From positions 26,434 through 90,433 of the forward strand of contig JAFQDK010000053.1 in the NCBI GenBank assembly GCA_017399305.1: a stretch of DNA of 64,000 nt, in the 5' to 3' direction. Positions 39,838 to 45,408 of the stretch are shown here, in pieces (positions within the stretch are counted from its first letter, which is position 1; each line of letters starts with the position of its first letter). The DNA is from Clostridia bacterium. GTDB lineage: Bacteria > Bacillota > Clostridia > Oscillospirales > CAG-272. The notes under the pieces were generated by a model, which searched no databases, was not told the origin of the DNA, and saw nothing but the letters and a program-made list of their open reading frames with translations. Made by a program: the position numbers and the translations under genes.

Positions 39838-39839
39838 AC

Positions 39840-39863
39840 AAAAGCCGACATTAGTCGGCTTTT
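39840..39863. terminator. Bidirectional terminator
   Basis: AAAAGCCGAC and GTCGGCTTTT form a 10-bp stem between convergent genes; it includes the stop codon at 39851. Confidence 0.8.
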
Positions 39864-40507
39864 ATTTCTTTAAGTGACTTTATATAAAAAGTTCCGTCAT
39901 CTCGCTTCATTAAAAGAAGTCGGTACGTTGGCGACACCGATTCATTCATTGCACAAGTAAACGTACAAACATAAGTATTCTCGGTTTCATAAAGCTCACT
40001 GATATTTATATCGGCTGAATTGTCTACACCTATACCCACTGACACATATGCATCAACTTTATCAAGATAAGTAAAAAGCTTTGTTGATGAATTGTTTACG
40101 CTGGCTGTTCCTCCAAAATAGCGGTATACCGTACTTTCAAAGTCAAGTGCCGGAATAACCGTGGTAATCTCATATGTCGGATACTGCTCACGTGTTTCGG
40201 TAATAAGTTCTATATTCGCATTATATTTCGAAAAATTGCGTTCAAGAATAAAGCACAGTATCCCGTCACGGTAAAGTTCAGCCGCCTCTGCAGGAGTATC
40301 AAATTCACCGAGATACGGTGTATTTTGCACCATGATCGGGATAATGCCACCAAGTTCACGGGCTACAGGGCTGTCGCTTTCAAGCATACCGATACTTTCC
40401 TCAGCCGAATAATCATGTGTATCAATACCAAGCACATCATACAACGAACAACTACTGAGCAAAAACACACAACTTATAACCAGAAGACATGCTAAAAAAC
40501 GTTTCAT
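39851..40507 (-). CDS. Lipoprotein of unknown function linked to the ATPase-like gene
   Basis: The 218-residue protein has a lipoprotein signal (FLLSSCS, lipid Cys20) and a domain of about 195 residues that is not recognised. It starts 5 bases after the stop of the degenerate P-type ATPase gene on the same strand, so both are almost surely co-transcribed. It lacks obvious metal-binding His/Met/Cys clusters. Confidence 0.6.
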   Translation of the reverse strand: MKRFLACLLVISCVFLLSSCSLYDVLGIDTHDYSAEESIGMLESDSPVARELGGIIPIMVQNTPYLGEFDTPAEAAELYRDGILCFILERNFSKYNANIELITETREQYPTYEITTVIPALDFESTVYRYFGGTASVNNSSTKLFTYLDKVDAYVSVGIGVDNSADINISELYETENTYVCTFTCAMNESVSPTYRLLLMKRDDGTFYIKSLKEIKAD

Positions 40508-40512
40508 AACAT

Positions 40513-42258
40513 TTATACCCGCTCGATAGATACTACGGTAAAGCCTACATCGCTGACCGCTTTTTCAAGTTTATTTACATCAAGCGATGCAGGGCACTTG
40601 ATGCGTGCGGCTTTATCGTCAAGAGAAATATTTGCGCTAACACCGCGAAGTGACTCAAGCGCAGTCTTGACACGGGCACTGCAATGCGCACATGACATAC
40701 CCTCTATTTTCATTGTATAATTAACTTTTCCAAACATACAGTCATCCTCCGAAGAAGCAATATCAGGTAATTTAACATTCAACAGTCTGAGCGAGTTCAA
40801 AAGAACCGCAAAAGACAGTATAAGTGACAAAATCGAAAGCGTTGCCAATGACATTACACTTTGAGTCACTCCGGCTGCTGACAGCAACGCCAAAGCTGAC
40901 AAAACAAATGATATCAACAAATTCTGTTTTATCACACGATGTGATTTTCTGCCAAGCACAAGCGAAAAAAGTATCCCCTCTAAACCACCGTCTTCAAGAG
41001 TGATGTCACTTTTCGTTGACGGCGTAAGAGTACATACGACACCGGCTTTTGCTATTGGAGCGCGGCTTACAACCATTGTGTTCATTTTAACATTATTTTT
41101 TAGTTCTTGCAACACTTTTTCACGTTCGGAAAGTAAAATATCAAAATCACTTTTTATGTCAGCGCGCTCATCTTCTGTAATGAGTATTCTGCAAACACCC
41201 AATTCCTTTAGTCGCTGCATCACTCCGCTTACTGCTTTTTTCTTCTTTCCACCAAGAAGCAAAAGACCGCAAAACTCACCGTTTCTAACCACATACAATG
41301 GAGTATAACCGCCCAAAGCAATATTTTGCACTGCATCAGGCAGTGCTATTTTTTTATCGCGCAGCAGTTTTTTATTTCCGAGGAAATACTTGTCGCCATA
41401 AACGGTAGCACCCACGCCTCTTCCGCAAATTTCAAAGTAGTTATCCGCATAAGGAATATTTGCCCCGTTCTTTACCGCCGCTTGCATAATTACCGATGCG
41501 AATGGGTGCTTTGAATGTGCCTCAATCGAAGCGCATACTGCAAGAACACCAAGCTTGTCGCCATCTACAGAATAGACATCATAGAGCGATTCAACCCGTT
41601 CGGTAACGACGCCATCTTGCTCAAAGATTATTTCTTTTACCTTTCCAAGATTTTCAACAGCGCGAGAAGTTTTAATGTGAACATTGTATTTCGACGCACA
41701 TAATCCACCTATAAGTGATGCAGCGGGACCGATTATACCAACCGTGCAAGGACATGAAACAGAAAGAACAAACAGCCCTTTTTTCAGAGCAAGCATAAGA
41801 CCGACTCTCAATCCAAGGTATACAATAACAGTAATCACAAATGCGCAAAGCGATATCGGCAATGCAATCCTACAAACGCGGTCACTTATGCGATATCCTG
41901 TTATGCCATTCTCTTTTGGCTCAAGATATCTGCCAATAACGACAAAAAACAAAGCCAATGCCGAATTTGCAAAAAGGTTTTTAGTATCCCATGTCGATAC
42001 ACCGTACATGAATGATGCAAGTGTGCCAACAAGCGTAAGCGAATACATATCCGGTTCAAAAGCGCCAAGCGCATCAAAACCTTCGCCAAGAATATCGCGA
42101 GTGATAAACAGCAAGAATAAAAATACCGCAAGCTGTACCAAAAACGGAATTTCAAATACCACAGCACCATATAAAAATATGGTTGCTGTAAATACCCCTG
42201 CCAGCCGTACCGCTTCCGGATTCTCTATATGCAATTGCCTTGTCAACATTTCTTTCAT
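40513..42258 (-). CDS. Degenerate P1B-type ATPase-like protein with C-terminal heavy-metal-associated domain
   Basis: The 581-residue protein is built like a copper-type P1B ATPase but lacks key catalytic parts. Present: hydrophobic helices (about 20-150), the CPC transport motif (SVSCPCTVG, 169-171), an HP motif (SKHPFA, 251-252) and GRGVGATVYG of the nucleotide-binding domain, and a C-terminal HMA domain (510-581) with MSCAHC. Absent: the actuator domain with TGES, since GRYLEPKENG (109-118) leads straight into the next helix; the phosphorylated Asp, since DKTGT is replaced by EQDGV (213-217); the TGD motif (ITEDE); and GDGxND (VVSRAP region, 396-401). The frame is intact and the losses are spread out, so this is a pseudo-enzyme rather than a frameshift. 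Pumping by the usual cycle is not expected; metal sensing or binding is an inference. Confidence 0.82.
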   Translation of the reverse strand: MKEMLTRQLHIENPEAVRLAGVFTATIFLYGAVVFEIPFLVQLAVFLFLLFITRDILGEGFDALGAFEPDMYSLTLVGTLASFMYGVSTWDTKNLFANSALALFFVVIGRYLEPKENGITGYRISDRVCRIALPISLCAFVITVIVYLGLRVGLMLALKKGLFVLSVSCPCTVGIIGPAASLIGGLCASKYNVHIKTSRAVENLGKVKEIIFEQDGVVTERVESLYDVYSVDGDKLGVLAVCASIEAHSKHPFASVIMQAAVKNGANIPYADNYFEICGRGVGATVYGDKYFLGNKKLLRDKKIALPDAVQNIALGGYTPLYVVRNGEFCGLLLLGGKKKKAVSGVMQRLKELGVCRILITEDERADIKSDFDILLSEREKVLQELKNNVKMNTMVVSRAPIAKAGVVCTLTPSTKSDITLEDGGLEGILFSLVLGRKSHRVIKQNLLISFVLSALALLSAAGVTQSVMSLATLSILSLILSFAVLLNSLRLLNVKLPDIASSEDDCMFGKVNYTMKIEGMSCAHCSARVKTALESLRGVSANISLDDKAARIKCPASLDVNKLEKAVSDVGFTVVSIERV

Positions 42259-42365: not shown

Positions 42366-42394
42366 AAAATGTATGCTTTTACGGAGGTGTGCAG

Positions 42395-42595
42395 ATGAAT
42401 ATACCCAAGATTTCAGTAGGCGACATTATCGAACTGAAAAAAGTGCATCCCTGCGGCACAAACTCTATGCGAGTGGCACGAGTGGGAAGCGATATACGTA
42501 TTATTTGCAACGGCTGTGGTCGTGACATGACACTTTCACGCGAAAAGCTTGAAAAAGCAATTCGACGTATTATAAGCAATGAGGTGACAGAATGA
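42395..42595 (+). CDS. DUF951 family protein
   Basis: The 66-residue protein matches DUF951: DIIELKKVHPCGTNSMRVAR then IRIICNGCGRDMTLSREKLEK, with conserved CGxN and CNGCGR motifs. The family lacks a proven function. The ATG at 42395 is chosen because GGAGG precedes it by 7 bases. It overlaps the YfhO gene by 4 bases. Confidence 0.88.
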   Translation: MNIPKISVGDIIELKKVHPCGTNSMRVARVGSDIRIICNGCGRDMTLSREKLEKAIRRIISNEVTE

Positions 42596-45408
42596 AAAAC
42601 GAAGGAAACCTTATAAAAAGAGGTAACAAAAAATACCTGTGGCTTGCCTTTTTAGCGCCATGCCTTTTGATGTATGCAATCTATTTTGCACGCGGTACTT
42701 TTCCTTTTGGAGATGAGTCGGTACTTGTACTTGACCTTAACGCGCAATATGTTTACTTTTTCGGTGCGCTTCGCCGCGCGCTTCATGGCGACGCAAGCCT
42801 TATTTACTCATTTTCTCGCGCTCTCGGCGGCGAGTTTATAGGTATTTTTGCATATTACCTTTCAAGCCCTCTTTCCTGGATAGTTGCCTTCTTCCCCGAA
42901 AACATGATGCTTGATGCATTGCTGGTTCTCTTTACCACCAAGTGCGGTCTGTGCGGTCTTACCCTTGCATGGTATCTCGACAGTCACCGAATCGGAACCA
43001 AAACATCGCGAATCATCTTCGGAATACTATATGCGCTCTGCGGATACGGAGTAATATACCAGCACAACACCATGTGGATAGACTGCATGTACCTGTTGCC
43101 GCTCGTTGCTCTCGGTATTGAACAGCTTATATCCAAACGCAAATACCTTTTATTCACAATCTCTCTCGGTGTAGCAATCTTTTCAAGCTTCTACATCGGA
43201 TTTATGATGTGCATCTTCTGCTTTTTATACTTTTTCTATGCATATTTCTGCGTTTGCAAGAATGAATGCGGAGAAAAAAAGCACTTTGTCAAATCCCTTT
43301 TGCGCATGGGAGTGTTCTCAGCAATCGCTTTAGGTCTTGCCGCATGTATAGTTCTGCCGACATATTACTCTCTCGGCTTTGGCAAAACCACCTTCTCAGA
43401 CCCCTCTTATCTGCTTGAATCCCGTTATGACTTTCTGGATCTTGTCAGCGGTATGTTCATAAACGCATATGACACAGTTCGCCCAGAAGGACGTCCGCTG
43501 GTATACTGCGGATTGCTGACAGCAATACTGCTTCCCCTGTTCTTTATGGCAAAGAAAGTATCCATTAAAGAAAAAACAGGCACCGGCGTAATGATCGGCA
43601 TTTTTGTTGTATCCATGACAATTGACGCCATTGACAAAGTATGGCATGGCATGCAAGCGCCAAACTGGCTCAACTACAGATACAGTTTCATGCTTGTATT
43701 TATTATGATTGTTGCCGCCGCAAAGGCTTTCTGCGAAATTCGTCATTTCACATCCGGGCAAAAGGCCGGAGTCATCGGTGCGTGGTTTATCATACTGATG
43801 ATGTCACAAAAGACAGTAGAATTCAGTGAGGAATCGGTTGTTCTTGACAGAACACTTCTTTGCTTCTATGTAACTGCCGCTTTTCTCGCTATATACGCAA
43901 CTGCGCTTGCGCTGTTCAAAGACAAAACATTTAAAAAAGCCGCTACTTCTGTACTGCTTATAGTTGTCTGCGCAGAAATGATGCTTTCCGGTATTATTTC
44001 TATTTGCTATCTCGACGATGATGTCGTATACTCAACACGTTCATCATATCTCGACAACAAAGCAAAGTACGAAGACAGCGCCGATTTCATACTTGAACAC
44101 GATGACGGATTCTACCGTTTTGATAAAACGCTGCATCCACTCATCAACACCCCAATGACACTTGGAATCCGTGGATTTACCAACTCAACATCCACACTAA
44201 ACAAGGACACCATAAACTTCCTTCAGCATCTTGGTCTGTCTTCGAAATCCCACTGGTCAAAATACTATGGCGGCACTCCTCCATTTGACGCTTTTCTCGC
44301 CGTAAAGTATATCATTGCGACAGACGATTATGATGTCCCGAGCAACTACATCCCCCTTTATCACGGAAACGCCACAACGGTTTATCAGAATCCCAATGCC
44401 CTTTCTGTTGCATATGCGGTAAATGATGGCATTAAAGAAATGCACCTTGCTTATCCCAAAGGTTACAAAGACGACATTGCAGCAGGCAAATATGAAGAAT
44501 ACACTGCTTATTATACTCCGGCACAAAGAATGAACGTCATGATGAGCACAATGCTTGGACTTGATGAAGAAATTAACGTATTTGTACCTGTAAGCGATGT
44601 AAAGCAACGCGATGCGAACATGAATTACACATACGTTGCGGAACATGGCAAGTATTCACCGATAAACGCTGACAGCGCAGCCGCACTTTATTATGACTTC
44701 ATTGCGGAAACTGACGGAATCATCTATATGTATCTCCCCACAGACTATCCCCGTGAGGCAAGTGTTCTTGTAAATGGAGTTGACAAAGGCACGGTTCTTG
44801 CAAACGAAACCGACCGCATGATTTCGCTTGGATCTTTCGCAAAGGATGAATCAATAACAGTTACACTTACACTGAAAGATGACCGTATCTACATCAGAGA
44901 AGATGAACCTCTCTTCTGGTATGTTGATATGGAAGTATACGATGACAGCTTCACTTCTCTCGCTGAAAATCAGTTCACCATTGAGAATTGGAGCGATACA
45001 AAGTTTGAGGGAAAGATCACTGCTACATTTGACCGCACTGCTGTATTTACCTCAATTCCATACGACGCAAACTGGCGCGTATGGGTAGACGGCGAGGAAG
45101 TTCCAACTTACGAAAATCTTGAAGCTCTCGTCGGATTTGACATCACACCAGGTGAACACGATGTCGTAATCAAATATGTCCCTAAGCAACTTTACATCGG
45201 TCTTGCAATAAGCGCCGTAAGCGGTTTTGCGTTAATCGCCATATTCGTATGCGAAATGCTTATCAAAAAGCACCGCGCCAGCAGTGCTCAGGAAGAAGAA
45301 ACGGTTTTTGAATCTGTTGAAGAAGAACCCGCTGACGCTCAGACCGAAAATGAATCCGAAGCACCTGCTAAAGAAGACACTCCCGAAGAATCAGAGGAGA
45401 ACAAATAA
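42592..45408 (+). CDS. YfhO-family membrane protein
   Basis: The 938-residue protein has about 13 membrane helices, starting with FLAPCLLMYAIYFARGTFPFG and LDLNAQYVYFFGALRRAL, the YfhO signature with the DLxxQY motif, then a large extracytoplasmic domain (about 500-855), a last helix (about 862-885) and a very acidic C-terminal tail (EEETVFESVEEEP onward). YfhO proteins act as GT-C type glycosyltransferase relatives in lipoteichoic acid or wall polymer modification. It sits in an operon with ruvA and ruvB, with 1- to 4-base overlaps. Confidence 0.88.
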   Translation: MKNEGNLIKRGNKKYLWLAFLAPCLLMYAIYFARGTFPFGDESVLVLDLNAQYVYFFGALRRALHGDASLIYSFSRALGGEFIGIFAYYLSSPLSWIVAFFPENMMLDALLVLFTTKCGLCGLTLAWYLDSHRIGTKTSRIIFGILYALCGYGVIYQHNTMWIDCMYLLPLVALGIEQLISKRKYLLFTISLGVAIFSSFYIGFMMCIFCFLYFFYAYFCVCKNECGEKKHFVKSLLRMGVFSAIALGLAACIVLPTYYSLGFGKTTFSDPSYLLESRYDFLDLVSGMFINAYDTVRPEGRPLVYCGLLTAILLPLFFMAKKVSIKEKTGTGVMIGIFVVSMTIDAIDKVWHGMQAPNWLNYRYSFMLVFIMIVAAAKAFCEIRHFTSGQKAGVIGAWFIILMMSQKTVEFSEESVVLDRTLLCFYVTAAFLAIYATALALFKDKTFKKAATSVLLIVVCAEMMLSGIISICYLDDDVVYSTRSSYLDNKAKYEDSADFILEHDDGFYRFDKTLHPLINTPMTLGIRGFTNSTSTLNKDTINFLQHLGLSSKSHWSKYYGGTPPFDAFLAVKYIIATDDYDVPSNYIPLYHGNATTVYQNPNALSVAYAVNDGIKEMHLAYPKGYKDDIAAGKYEEYTAYYTPAQRMNVMMSTMLGLDEEINVFVPVSDVKQRDANMNYTYVAEHGKYSPINADSAAALYYDFIAETDGIIYMYLPTDYPREASVLVNGVDKGTVLANETDRMISLGSFAKDESITVTLTLKDDRIYIREDEPLFWYVDMEVYDDSFTSLAENQFTIENWSDTKFEGKITATFDRTAVFTSIPYDANWRVWVDGEEVPTYENLEALVGFDITPGEHDVVIKYVPKQLYIGLAISAVSGFALIAIFVCEMLIKKHRASSAQEEETVFESVEEEPADAQTENESEAPAKEDTPEESEENK

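Follow-up and report, generated by a model that had tools for sequence, protein, structure and literature searches.

The copA gene of Escherichia coli reportedly gives rise to a copper chaperone, CopA(Z), which corresponds to the N-terminal HMA domain and is produced by programmed frameshifting. Pseudoenzymes are well known among kinases and proteases. In the open-licence literature, searched with narrow terms, no paper was found on a catalytically dead P-type ATPase or on an internal translation start in copA. CupA of Streptococcus pneumoniae is described in an excerpt of PMC7558416 as a membrane-anchored, cupredoxin-like copper chaperone. In Staphylococcus aureus, the P1B ATPase CopX and the lipoprotein CopL are encoded by a two-gene operon, and CopL has DUF1541 domains, according to an excerpt of PMC5947656.

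Here we describe a degenerate CopA-type gene and the lipoprotein gene that follows it in a 64,000-nucleotide stretch of DNA from a Clostridia bacterium (the window; its genome, G000, has a completeness of 64%), and compare them with these systems. The parts of these two genes described below lie on the minus strand, and residue numbers of the degenerate ATPase are those of P0001.

The gene is of the CopA type but has lost the motifs of a pump

The P0001 ORF (40513..42258) runs from an ATG at 42258 to a stop at 40513 and encodes 581 aa. Homology searches identified orthologues in four further genomes of the genus (G002, G003, G004, and G005). In family and structure searches with the translation minus its first Met, P0001 matched TIGR01525 (heavy-metal P1B ATPase; E 6.6e-39, below its curated cut-off), Pfam HMA (E 1.5e-10, above cut-off), and solved CopA structures (3j09, E 9.3e-32). 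Pfam E1-E2_ATPase and Hydrolase, and CopZ models among the NCBIfam matches, were all matched below their cut-offs. The HMA domain has the GMxCxxC motif of CopZ-type chaperones. The P1B family matches and the match to 3j09 bear out the initial annotation of the gene as a copper-type P-type ATPase.

Alignment with intact CopA revealed that P0001 lacks the N-terminal HMA domain, the whole actuator (A) domain with TGES, the DKTGT motif (replaced by EQDGV at 41608..41622), TGD (TED), and GDGxND (site of the lost P-domain loop at 41053..41067). The missing A domain is marked by a junction at residues 113-126 (41881..41922), as seen against the intact G001 copy and canonical CopAs. The phosphorylated Asp of DKTGT, the A domain with TGE, and TGD and GDGxND of the P domain are lost in all five degenerate copies. 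Neither a displaced A domain nor displaced catalytic motifs were seen within the P0001 ORF by Pfam search and alignments. The four losses listed in the initial annotation (TGES deleted, DKTGT changed to EQDGV, TGD changed, and GDGxND absent) were all recovered in the alignment, and they support its statement that the protein is without what the phospho-enzyme cycle needs. Its remark that the HMA domain is C-terminal instead of N-terminal should be corrected: there has been no relocation, as 36 of 45 P1B ATPase rows (counting two duplicate loci) have one HMA domain at each end, and it is the N-terminal one that is missing here.

The initial annotation further held that the metal sites are kept, which is true of the C-terminal HMA domain but not of the membrane site. 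CPC, HP, and GMSCAHC are all present in the window copy. CPC in M4 (residues 169-171, 41746..41754) is also found in G004 but is CPI in G002 and CPA in G003 and G005, so that the second Cys is lost in three of five copies; the first Cys and the Pro are invariant among the aligned sequences. The Tyr-Asn (YN) pair of M5 is part of the copper transport site. In the M5-M6 region (residues 431-496, 40771..40968), this pair is lost in all five degenerate copies, with Ser in place of an Asn that is present in 25 of 25 other intact CopAs. The aligned M6 is also without its usual Met, but the alignment is gappy there and this was given no weight. Because the YN pair is lost in 5/5 copies and the second Cys of CPC in 3/5, the intramembrane copper site of the degenerate copies is, judged by its residues, broken. 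A protein that still transports, using other residues or borrowing domains of canonical CopA, would make sense of the intact N-domain ligands described below, but no DKTGT Asp, A domain, or GDGxND is left to it and the YN pair is gone from every copy; we consider such activity extremely improbable.

The degenerate form is shared by five of six genomes of the genus

A full-length degenerate copy with an open frame and the same losses is present in five of the six genomes of the genus, all of which are incomplete (53-84%). The copies measure 575-581 aa from the aligned start and contain no stops; the other four are 42-47% identical to P0001. In the sixth genome, G001, this locus is occupied by an intact CopA of 824 aa from its ATG, or 840 aa if an upstream TTG is taken as the start, which has both an N-terminal and a C-terminal HMA domain. 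Downstream of it come the same lipoprotein gene and three gene families matching those beyond the lipoprotein of the window; the upstream side differs. The gene order with the lipoprotein is kept in 6/6 genus genomes. In the window, the degenerate copA stands back to back with the DUF951 and YfhO genes (42389-45408), which overlap by 4 bases; it adjoins yfhO in G002-G005, not in G001.

A tree of 45 proteins, built by a quick method, placed the five degenerate copies and the G001 gene in one group (SH-aLRT 99), within which the five copies were a subgroup (100), and put the canonical CopAs of the genus elsewhere. When the C-terminal HMA domain was cut off (24 rows), a branch with a support of 97 separated the G001 gene and the five copies from the other 18. 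Both trees have long branches among the five degenerate copies. Elsewhere in their genomes, G000, G002, G003, and G004 also carry canonical CopA genes; the incomplete genomes G001 and G005 yielded none. A csoR gene adjoins canonical copA in G000 and G003, and no csoR was found in the other four genus genomes. Matches to a copper-operator-like site (ACCCNNNNGGGT, 1 mismatch) were not beyond chance (8 vs 7.67 expected).

The degenerate form was not found beyond the genus in the samples of family and order genomes and GTDB contigs. Among 395 family genomes, only the five genus copies scored above 900 bits, with the G001 gene at 438 and the rest of the E 1e-60 matches at 246 or less. In 394 order genomes, nothing except the window's own copy was retrieved at E 1e-80. 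In GTDB contigs, 4 of 9 loci had the degenerate form, and these belong to the MAGs of the four other genus copies (RGIG4250, SIG637, RGIG4012, and RGIG1777), in a search that may omit the genome of the window.

The initial annotation had proposed that intact homologues in close relatives would make this gene a lone decaying pseudogene. An intact homologue does exist at the same locus in G001, but the degenerate copies are a clade of five, not a case of lone decay; with open frames and the same losses in five of six congeneric genomes, and with the purifying selection described below, a lone pseudogene is rejected. Homologues in which the same losses go with the same lipoprotein neighbor, as the annotation had suggested looking for in other Clostridia, were recovered in the genus, with the lipoprotein gene adjacent in every genome, and not beyond it in the samples searched. 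An assembly artefact is likewise rejected, because four other copies from separate MAGs share the same losses.

Constraint has been retained in the N domain and the HMA domain

The G003/G005 pair, for which dS is unsaturated, gave a whole-gene dN/dS of 0.21 (0.17-0.27). Within the gene, the ratio was lowest in the N domain (0.09), followed by the linker plus HMA (0.12) and the second P segment (0.14); the three membrane segments had 0.26-0.34, and the first P segment, of 25 codons, had 0.44 with an interval that includes 1. In a neutral simulation of one lineage, none of 500 runs was stop-free. Codon-model likelihoods rejected omega = 1 in all six domains tested (MA-M2, M3-M4, N, P2, M5-M6, and HMA, with the first P segment left out; 2dlnL 34.8 to 144.9). 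The open frames with shared losses in the five genomes, together with the dN/dS of this pair, uphold the earlier claim that selection keeps the gene.

We compared the omegas of the degenerate copies with those of canonical CopA (4 genus rows, 3 for M5-M6 and HMA). The respective values were 0.33 and 0.09 in MA-M2, the fast-evolving N-terminal membrane region (residues 1-121, 41896..42258), 0.23 and 0.035 in M3-M4, 0.21 and 0.06 in P2, 0.26 and 0.016 in M5-M6, 0.17 and 0.13 in N, and 0.12 and 0.14 in HMA; most pairs other than G003/G005 are saturated at synonymous sites, so the single omegas are rough and it is the contrast between domains that counts. Relative to canonical CopA, the degenerate copies are relaxed by a factor of about 3 to 16 in the pump core, 1.3 in the N domain, and 0.9 in HMA. 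The same pattern was observed in same-species pairs (n = 3): membrane-segment identity was 0.78-0.93 in canonical CopA, whose first segment takes in A-domain columns, vs 0.15-0.37 in the degenerate copies, N-domain identity was 0.57-0.62 vs 0.52-0.60, and HMA identity was 0.61-0.64 vs 0.73-0.76. By these measures, constraint on the N domain and HMA is close to its level in the genus's canonical CopA.

In a residue alignment of 31 sequences (five degenerate copies, the G001 gene, and 25 other intact CopAs), 19 positions were invariant in 31/31. Five of them are the nucleotide ligands of the N domain (residues 222-338, 41245..41595), namely, E246, H251, G279, G281, and G294, and seven lie in the HMA domain, including both cysteines and the histidine of CxHC. 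As described in an excerpt of PMC5089723, the nucleotide site of P1B N domains consists of a Glu, a His, and three Gly, and the ATP affinity of isolated plant P1B N domains is very weak. The ligand roles were placed on P0001 by spacing and by alignment to 3j09, and the five predicted ATP-binding residues survive in the degenerate copies.

These data bear on the idea that the body of the gene is a passive carrier, in which a nested copZ and the lipoprotein gene, with an intragenic promoter, are selected and the rest decays slowly, unused as protein. The strong relaxation of the membrane and P-domain parts agrees with it, as does the conservation at the nucleotide level of the nested start and promoter element described below. 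However, slow decay does not fit an N-domain omega near that of canonical CopA, ATP ligands kept in five of five copies, rejection of omega = 1 in every domain tested, or five stop-free copies where simulated neutral runs of a single lineage gave none, and we regard a passive carrier as quite unlikely.

A putative nested start precedes the C-terminal HMA domain

M508 of P0001 (window position 40737) opens a nested in-frame ORF of 74 aa (MFGK..., 40513..40737) that comprises the CopZ-like HMA domain with GMSCAHC, and an internal Shine-Dalgarno (SD) sequence, GGAGGA (40745..40750), is located 7 nt 5' of this ATG. SD and ATG are present at the nested position in 6/6 genus genes, including the intact one of G001 (dG -9.5 to -11.5). 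In rank, the nested SD was 3 of 573 codon positions in P0001 and 20 of 570 in G005. Five invariant residues around the nested start are encoded by identical codons in 0.93 of pairs among the six genus genes (0.44 expected), compared with 0.45 (0.34 expected) in the other 84 codon columns; GC3 of these genes ranges from 0.31 to 0.69.

We also examined a wider set of genes. A C-terminal HMA domain was present in 42 of 49 genes (the six genus genes among them), and an ATG was found just 5' of it in 39 of the 42 and was absent in three. When the ATG with the best SD was taken among several, the nested SD reached -8 kcal/mol in 34/39 genes, vs about 2% of 771 other internal ATGs in the same genes; N-terminal CopA starts reached this level in 15 of 27 cases. 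In a hold-out of 28 loci, all of them from other orders of the class (best-scoring matches, some of them congeners), an ATG was present in 25, of which 20 reached -8 kcal/mol vs 11 of 342 control ATGs; two more loci had GTG at the same place with a strong SD, and one was without a C-terminal HMA domain. The two sets were then pooled as 58 distinct intact genes (33 from the first set and 25 from the hold-out), with the ATG chosen blind to the SD. In this test, 49 of the 58 clostridial copA genes were at -8 kcal/mol or below, and the mean dG was -8.78 vs -5.21 (sd 0.34) in synonymous shuffles, none of 1000 being as low (z -10.5). Taken singly, 5/39 genes beat their own synonymous shuffles at 0.05; most are non-significant because Lys-Glu codons themselves make AAGGAG. 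The SD core occurs in all three codon frames (22, 13, and 4), and therefore it is nucleotides, not one amino-acid motif, that are kept. As the sole available negative control, one N-terminal tandem HMA showed no similar start site. Clostridial copA thus seems to carry a nested copZ. The nested copZ-like start was found in most of the intact clostridial copA genes examined, independently of the degenerate gene of the window.

Could the internal SD and ATG be unused relics of an ancient copA-copZ fusion? In a relative, G307, copA is followed by a separate 60-aa HMA ORF (L155:2540-2746) behind AAGGAG at a similar SD spacing. This arrangement is likely the unfused copA-copZ state, and such a history, the three C-terminal-HMA genes without an ATG, and the small number of genes that beat their own shuffles would suit a relic. 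A relic would not, however, be expected to keep its start in other orders of the class, to hold the SD core in three codon frames, to replace ATG by GTG while retaining a strong SD, as in the two hold-out genes, or to depart from synonymous shuffles as far as the pooled genes do. An unused relic is in our judgment distinctly improbable. With the G307 HMA as a query, no match was obtained in the genus genomes, in a search without a positive control.

Other sources of small HMA proteins vary between genomes. The HMA of the nested gene is the only one found in G005; in G002 a single other was found, the N-terminal HMA of canonical CopA. G003 and G001 each also have one small HMA ORF. Many other genomes of the family have separate small HMA ORFs and so need not depend on a nested copZ alone, and the proposal that the family has no other CopZ was dropped. 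The canonical CopA of G002 (L035) is without a C-terminal HMA domain, and that of G004 (L033) is without the nested ATG. In these two genomes, then, a nested copZ may be supplied by the degenerate gene alone.

A promoter-like element lies within the gene and a lipoprotein gene follows it

A sequence scan detected a sigma-70-like promoter element, TTGCAA-17-TAAAAT with an extended TGn -10 (41084..41112), inside the degenerate gene. TTGCAA, 17 nt, and then TAAAAT or TACAAT preceded by TGn occur at the homologous place in 6/6 genus genes. A cluster of identical codons (residues 380 and 383-385) coincides with TTGCAA, and the residues under the -10 differ between the genus genes. The element is the only sense-strand site of such quality in five of the six genes; P0001 has six. 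Per gene, 238 (P0001), 8, 155, 5, 6, and 2 of 5000 synonymous shuffles were as good, the genes being related and not independent. With six such sites and 238 shuffles as good, the element of P0001 does not stand out when this gene is taken by itself. The window region contained 11 promoter-like sites vs 7.1 (sd 2.6) expected, and none of 45 other P1B genes had a 9/12 match plus TG near the homologous place. The promoter-like element is weaker evidence than the nested start, because it was noticed in the data first and tested afterwards. Should the element be genuine, transcription from it would cover the nested HMA ORF together with the lipoprotein gene, as far as a terminator-like hairpin 3' of the latter (39838..39865; six such sites against 2.8 expected over the 3 kb scanned).

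The lipoprotein gene (P0002, 218 aa, 39851..40507) begins 5 bases downstream of P0001, in agreement with the initial annotation, but a role as a dedicated partner of CopA was not supported. Lipoproteins of this kind occur in 108 of the 395 family genomes, in 18 of 71 genera, and no P-type ATPase was found in the flanks fetched at 40 such loci beyond the genus, 38 of which had 1.5 kb or more of upstream sequence; the single 48-aa ATPase-like blastp match was out of frame inside another ORF, and tblastn gave nothing. None of 26 lipoproteins had a Pfam match, and no remote PDB relative was found by profile. Ten mature residues are invariant in 6/6 genus lipoproteins and are found in at most 5% of 40 others. 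Four of the ten, M59, C85, C181, and M187, each occur in 0/40 outside the genus; they are Cu(I)-type ligands and might form a candidate extracytoplasmic site gained where the gene sits behind copA, which is suggestive only.

The initial annotation had inferred a metal receptor, chaperone dock, or regulatory membrane protein. In a regulatory or receptor role, the full-length protein would bind Cu(I) via the HMA domain and ATP or ADP via the N domain, and would dock on or inhibit canonical CopA or signal to the lipoprotein. The joint retention of HMA, N domain, and membrane region and the gene order kept with the lipoprotein in all six genomes are in line with such a role; no signalling domain is among the Pfam matches, however, the lipoprotein family does without a nearby P-type ATPase at all 40 loci outside the genus, and the intramembrane metal site is broken. 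We consider this role unlikely, although it deserves some weight.

Implications of the degenerate gene and comparison with known systems

The conserved nested SD and ATG, and the promoter-like element upstream of them inside the gene, can be read directly from the sequence. The strongest new evidence points to a chaperone role, because the HMA domain looks like a nested translation unit. With moderate confidence, we therefore propose that the gene is a former second CopA of the genus that has lost the ability to pump and survives as a gene for a copper chaperone. The cell would make two products from it. One would be a free 74-aa CopZ-like Cu(I) carrier translated from the nested start; the other, the full-length protein, would be a membrane-anchored HMA domain with an N domain that may have kept its ATP binding. 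The two would gather Cu(I) in the cytosol and pass it to the canonical CopA encoded elsewhere. The csoR genes beside canonical copA in G000 and G003, and the few other HMA domains found in G005 and G002, fit this proposal; the small HMA ORFs of many family genomes and of G003 and G001, the chance-level number of copper-operator-like matches, and the very weak ATP affinity of isolated plant N domains speak against it.

A broader interpretation, plausible but tentative, is that copA is a two-in-one gene across Clostridia, giving a pump and, from a nested in-frame start, a free CopZ. In this genus, the pump half of the second copA would have died, leaving a nested chaperone with its own promoter and a membrane-tethered HMA fused to an ATP-binding domain, that is, a transporter turned nucleotide-linked metallochaperone. 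The dead pump can be set beside an intact counterpart from the same locus, and the inverted pattern of constraint shows which of its modules still matter. If translated, the nested copZ would reveal a way for a fused pump gene of Clostridia to go on supplying free copper chaperone, and would add to the frameshift of E. coli a second route to a pump and a chaperone from one gene.

P0001 shares with CopA, a P1B-1 copper-exporting ATPase (e.g., 3j09), homology over M3-M6, P, N, and HMA and the N-domain ligands E, H, G, G, and G, but it is without the A domain, DKTGT, TGD, GDGxND, and the N-terminal HMA, and its membrane copper site appears broken. Like CopZ, it has a GMxCxHC HMA domain of about 70 aa with an apparent ribosome site of its own; unlike CopZ, this domain is encoded by the last in-frame stretch of a dead copA gene and also belongs to a membrane protein. 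In E. coli, one gene is likewise said to give both pump and chaperone, but there the N-terminal HMA domain is reportedly released by frameshift, whereas here a C-terminal one would arise from a putative internal start. The idea of a membrane-tethered copper chaperone serving CopA is common to CupA, which has a cupredoxin fold with a binuclear Cu site, whereas the metal domain of P0001 is an HMA domain on a degenerate pump. Finally, the pairing of a P1B ATPase gene with a lipoprotein gene recalls CopX-CopL; in contrast to CopL, the lipoprotein of the window has neither DUF1541 nor any other Pfam match, and copper binding is only suggested by its genus-specific Cys and Met residues.
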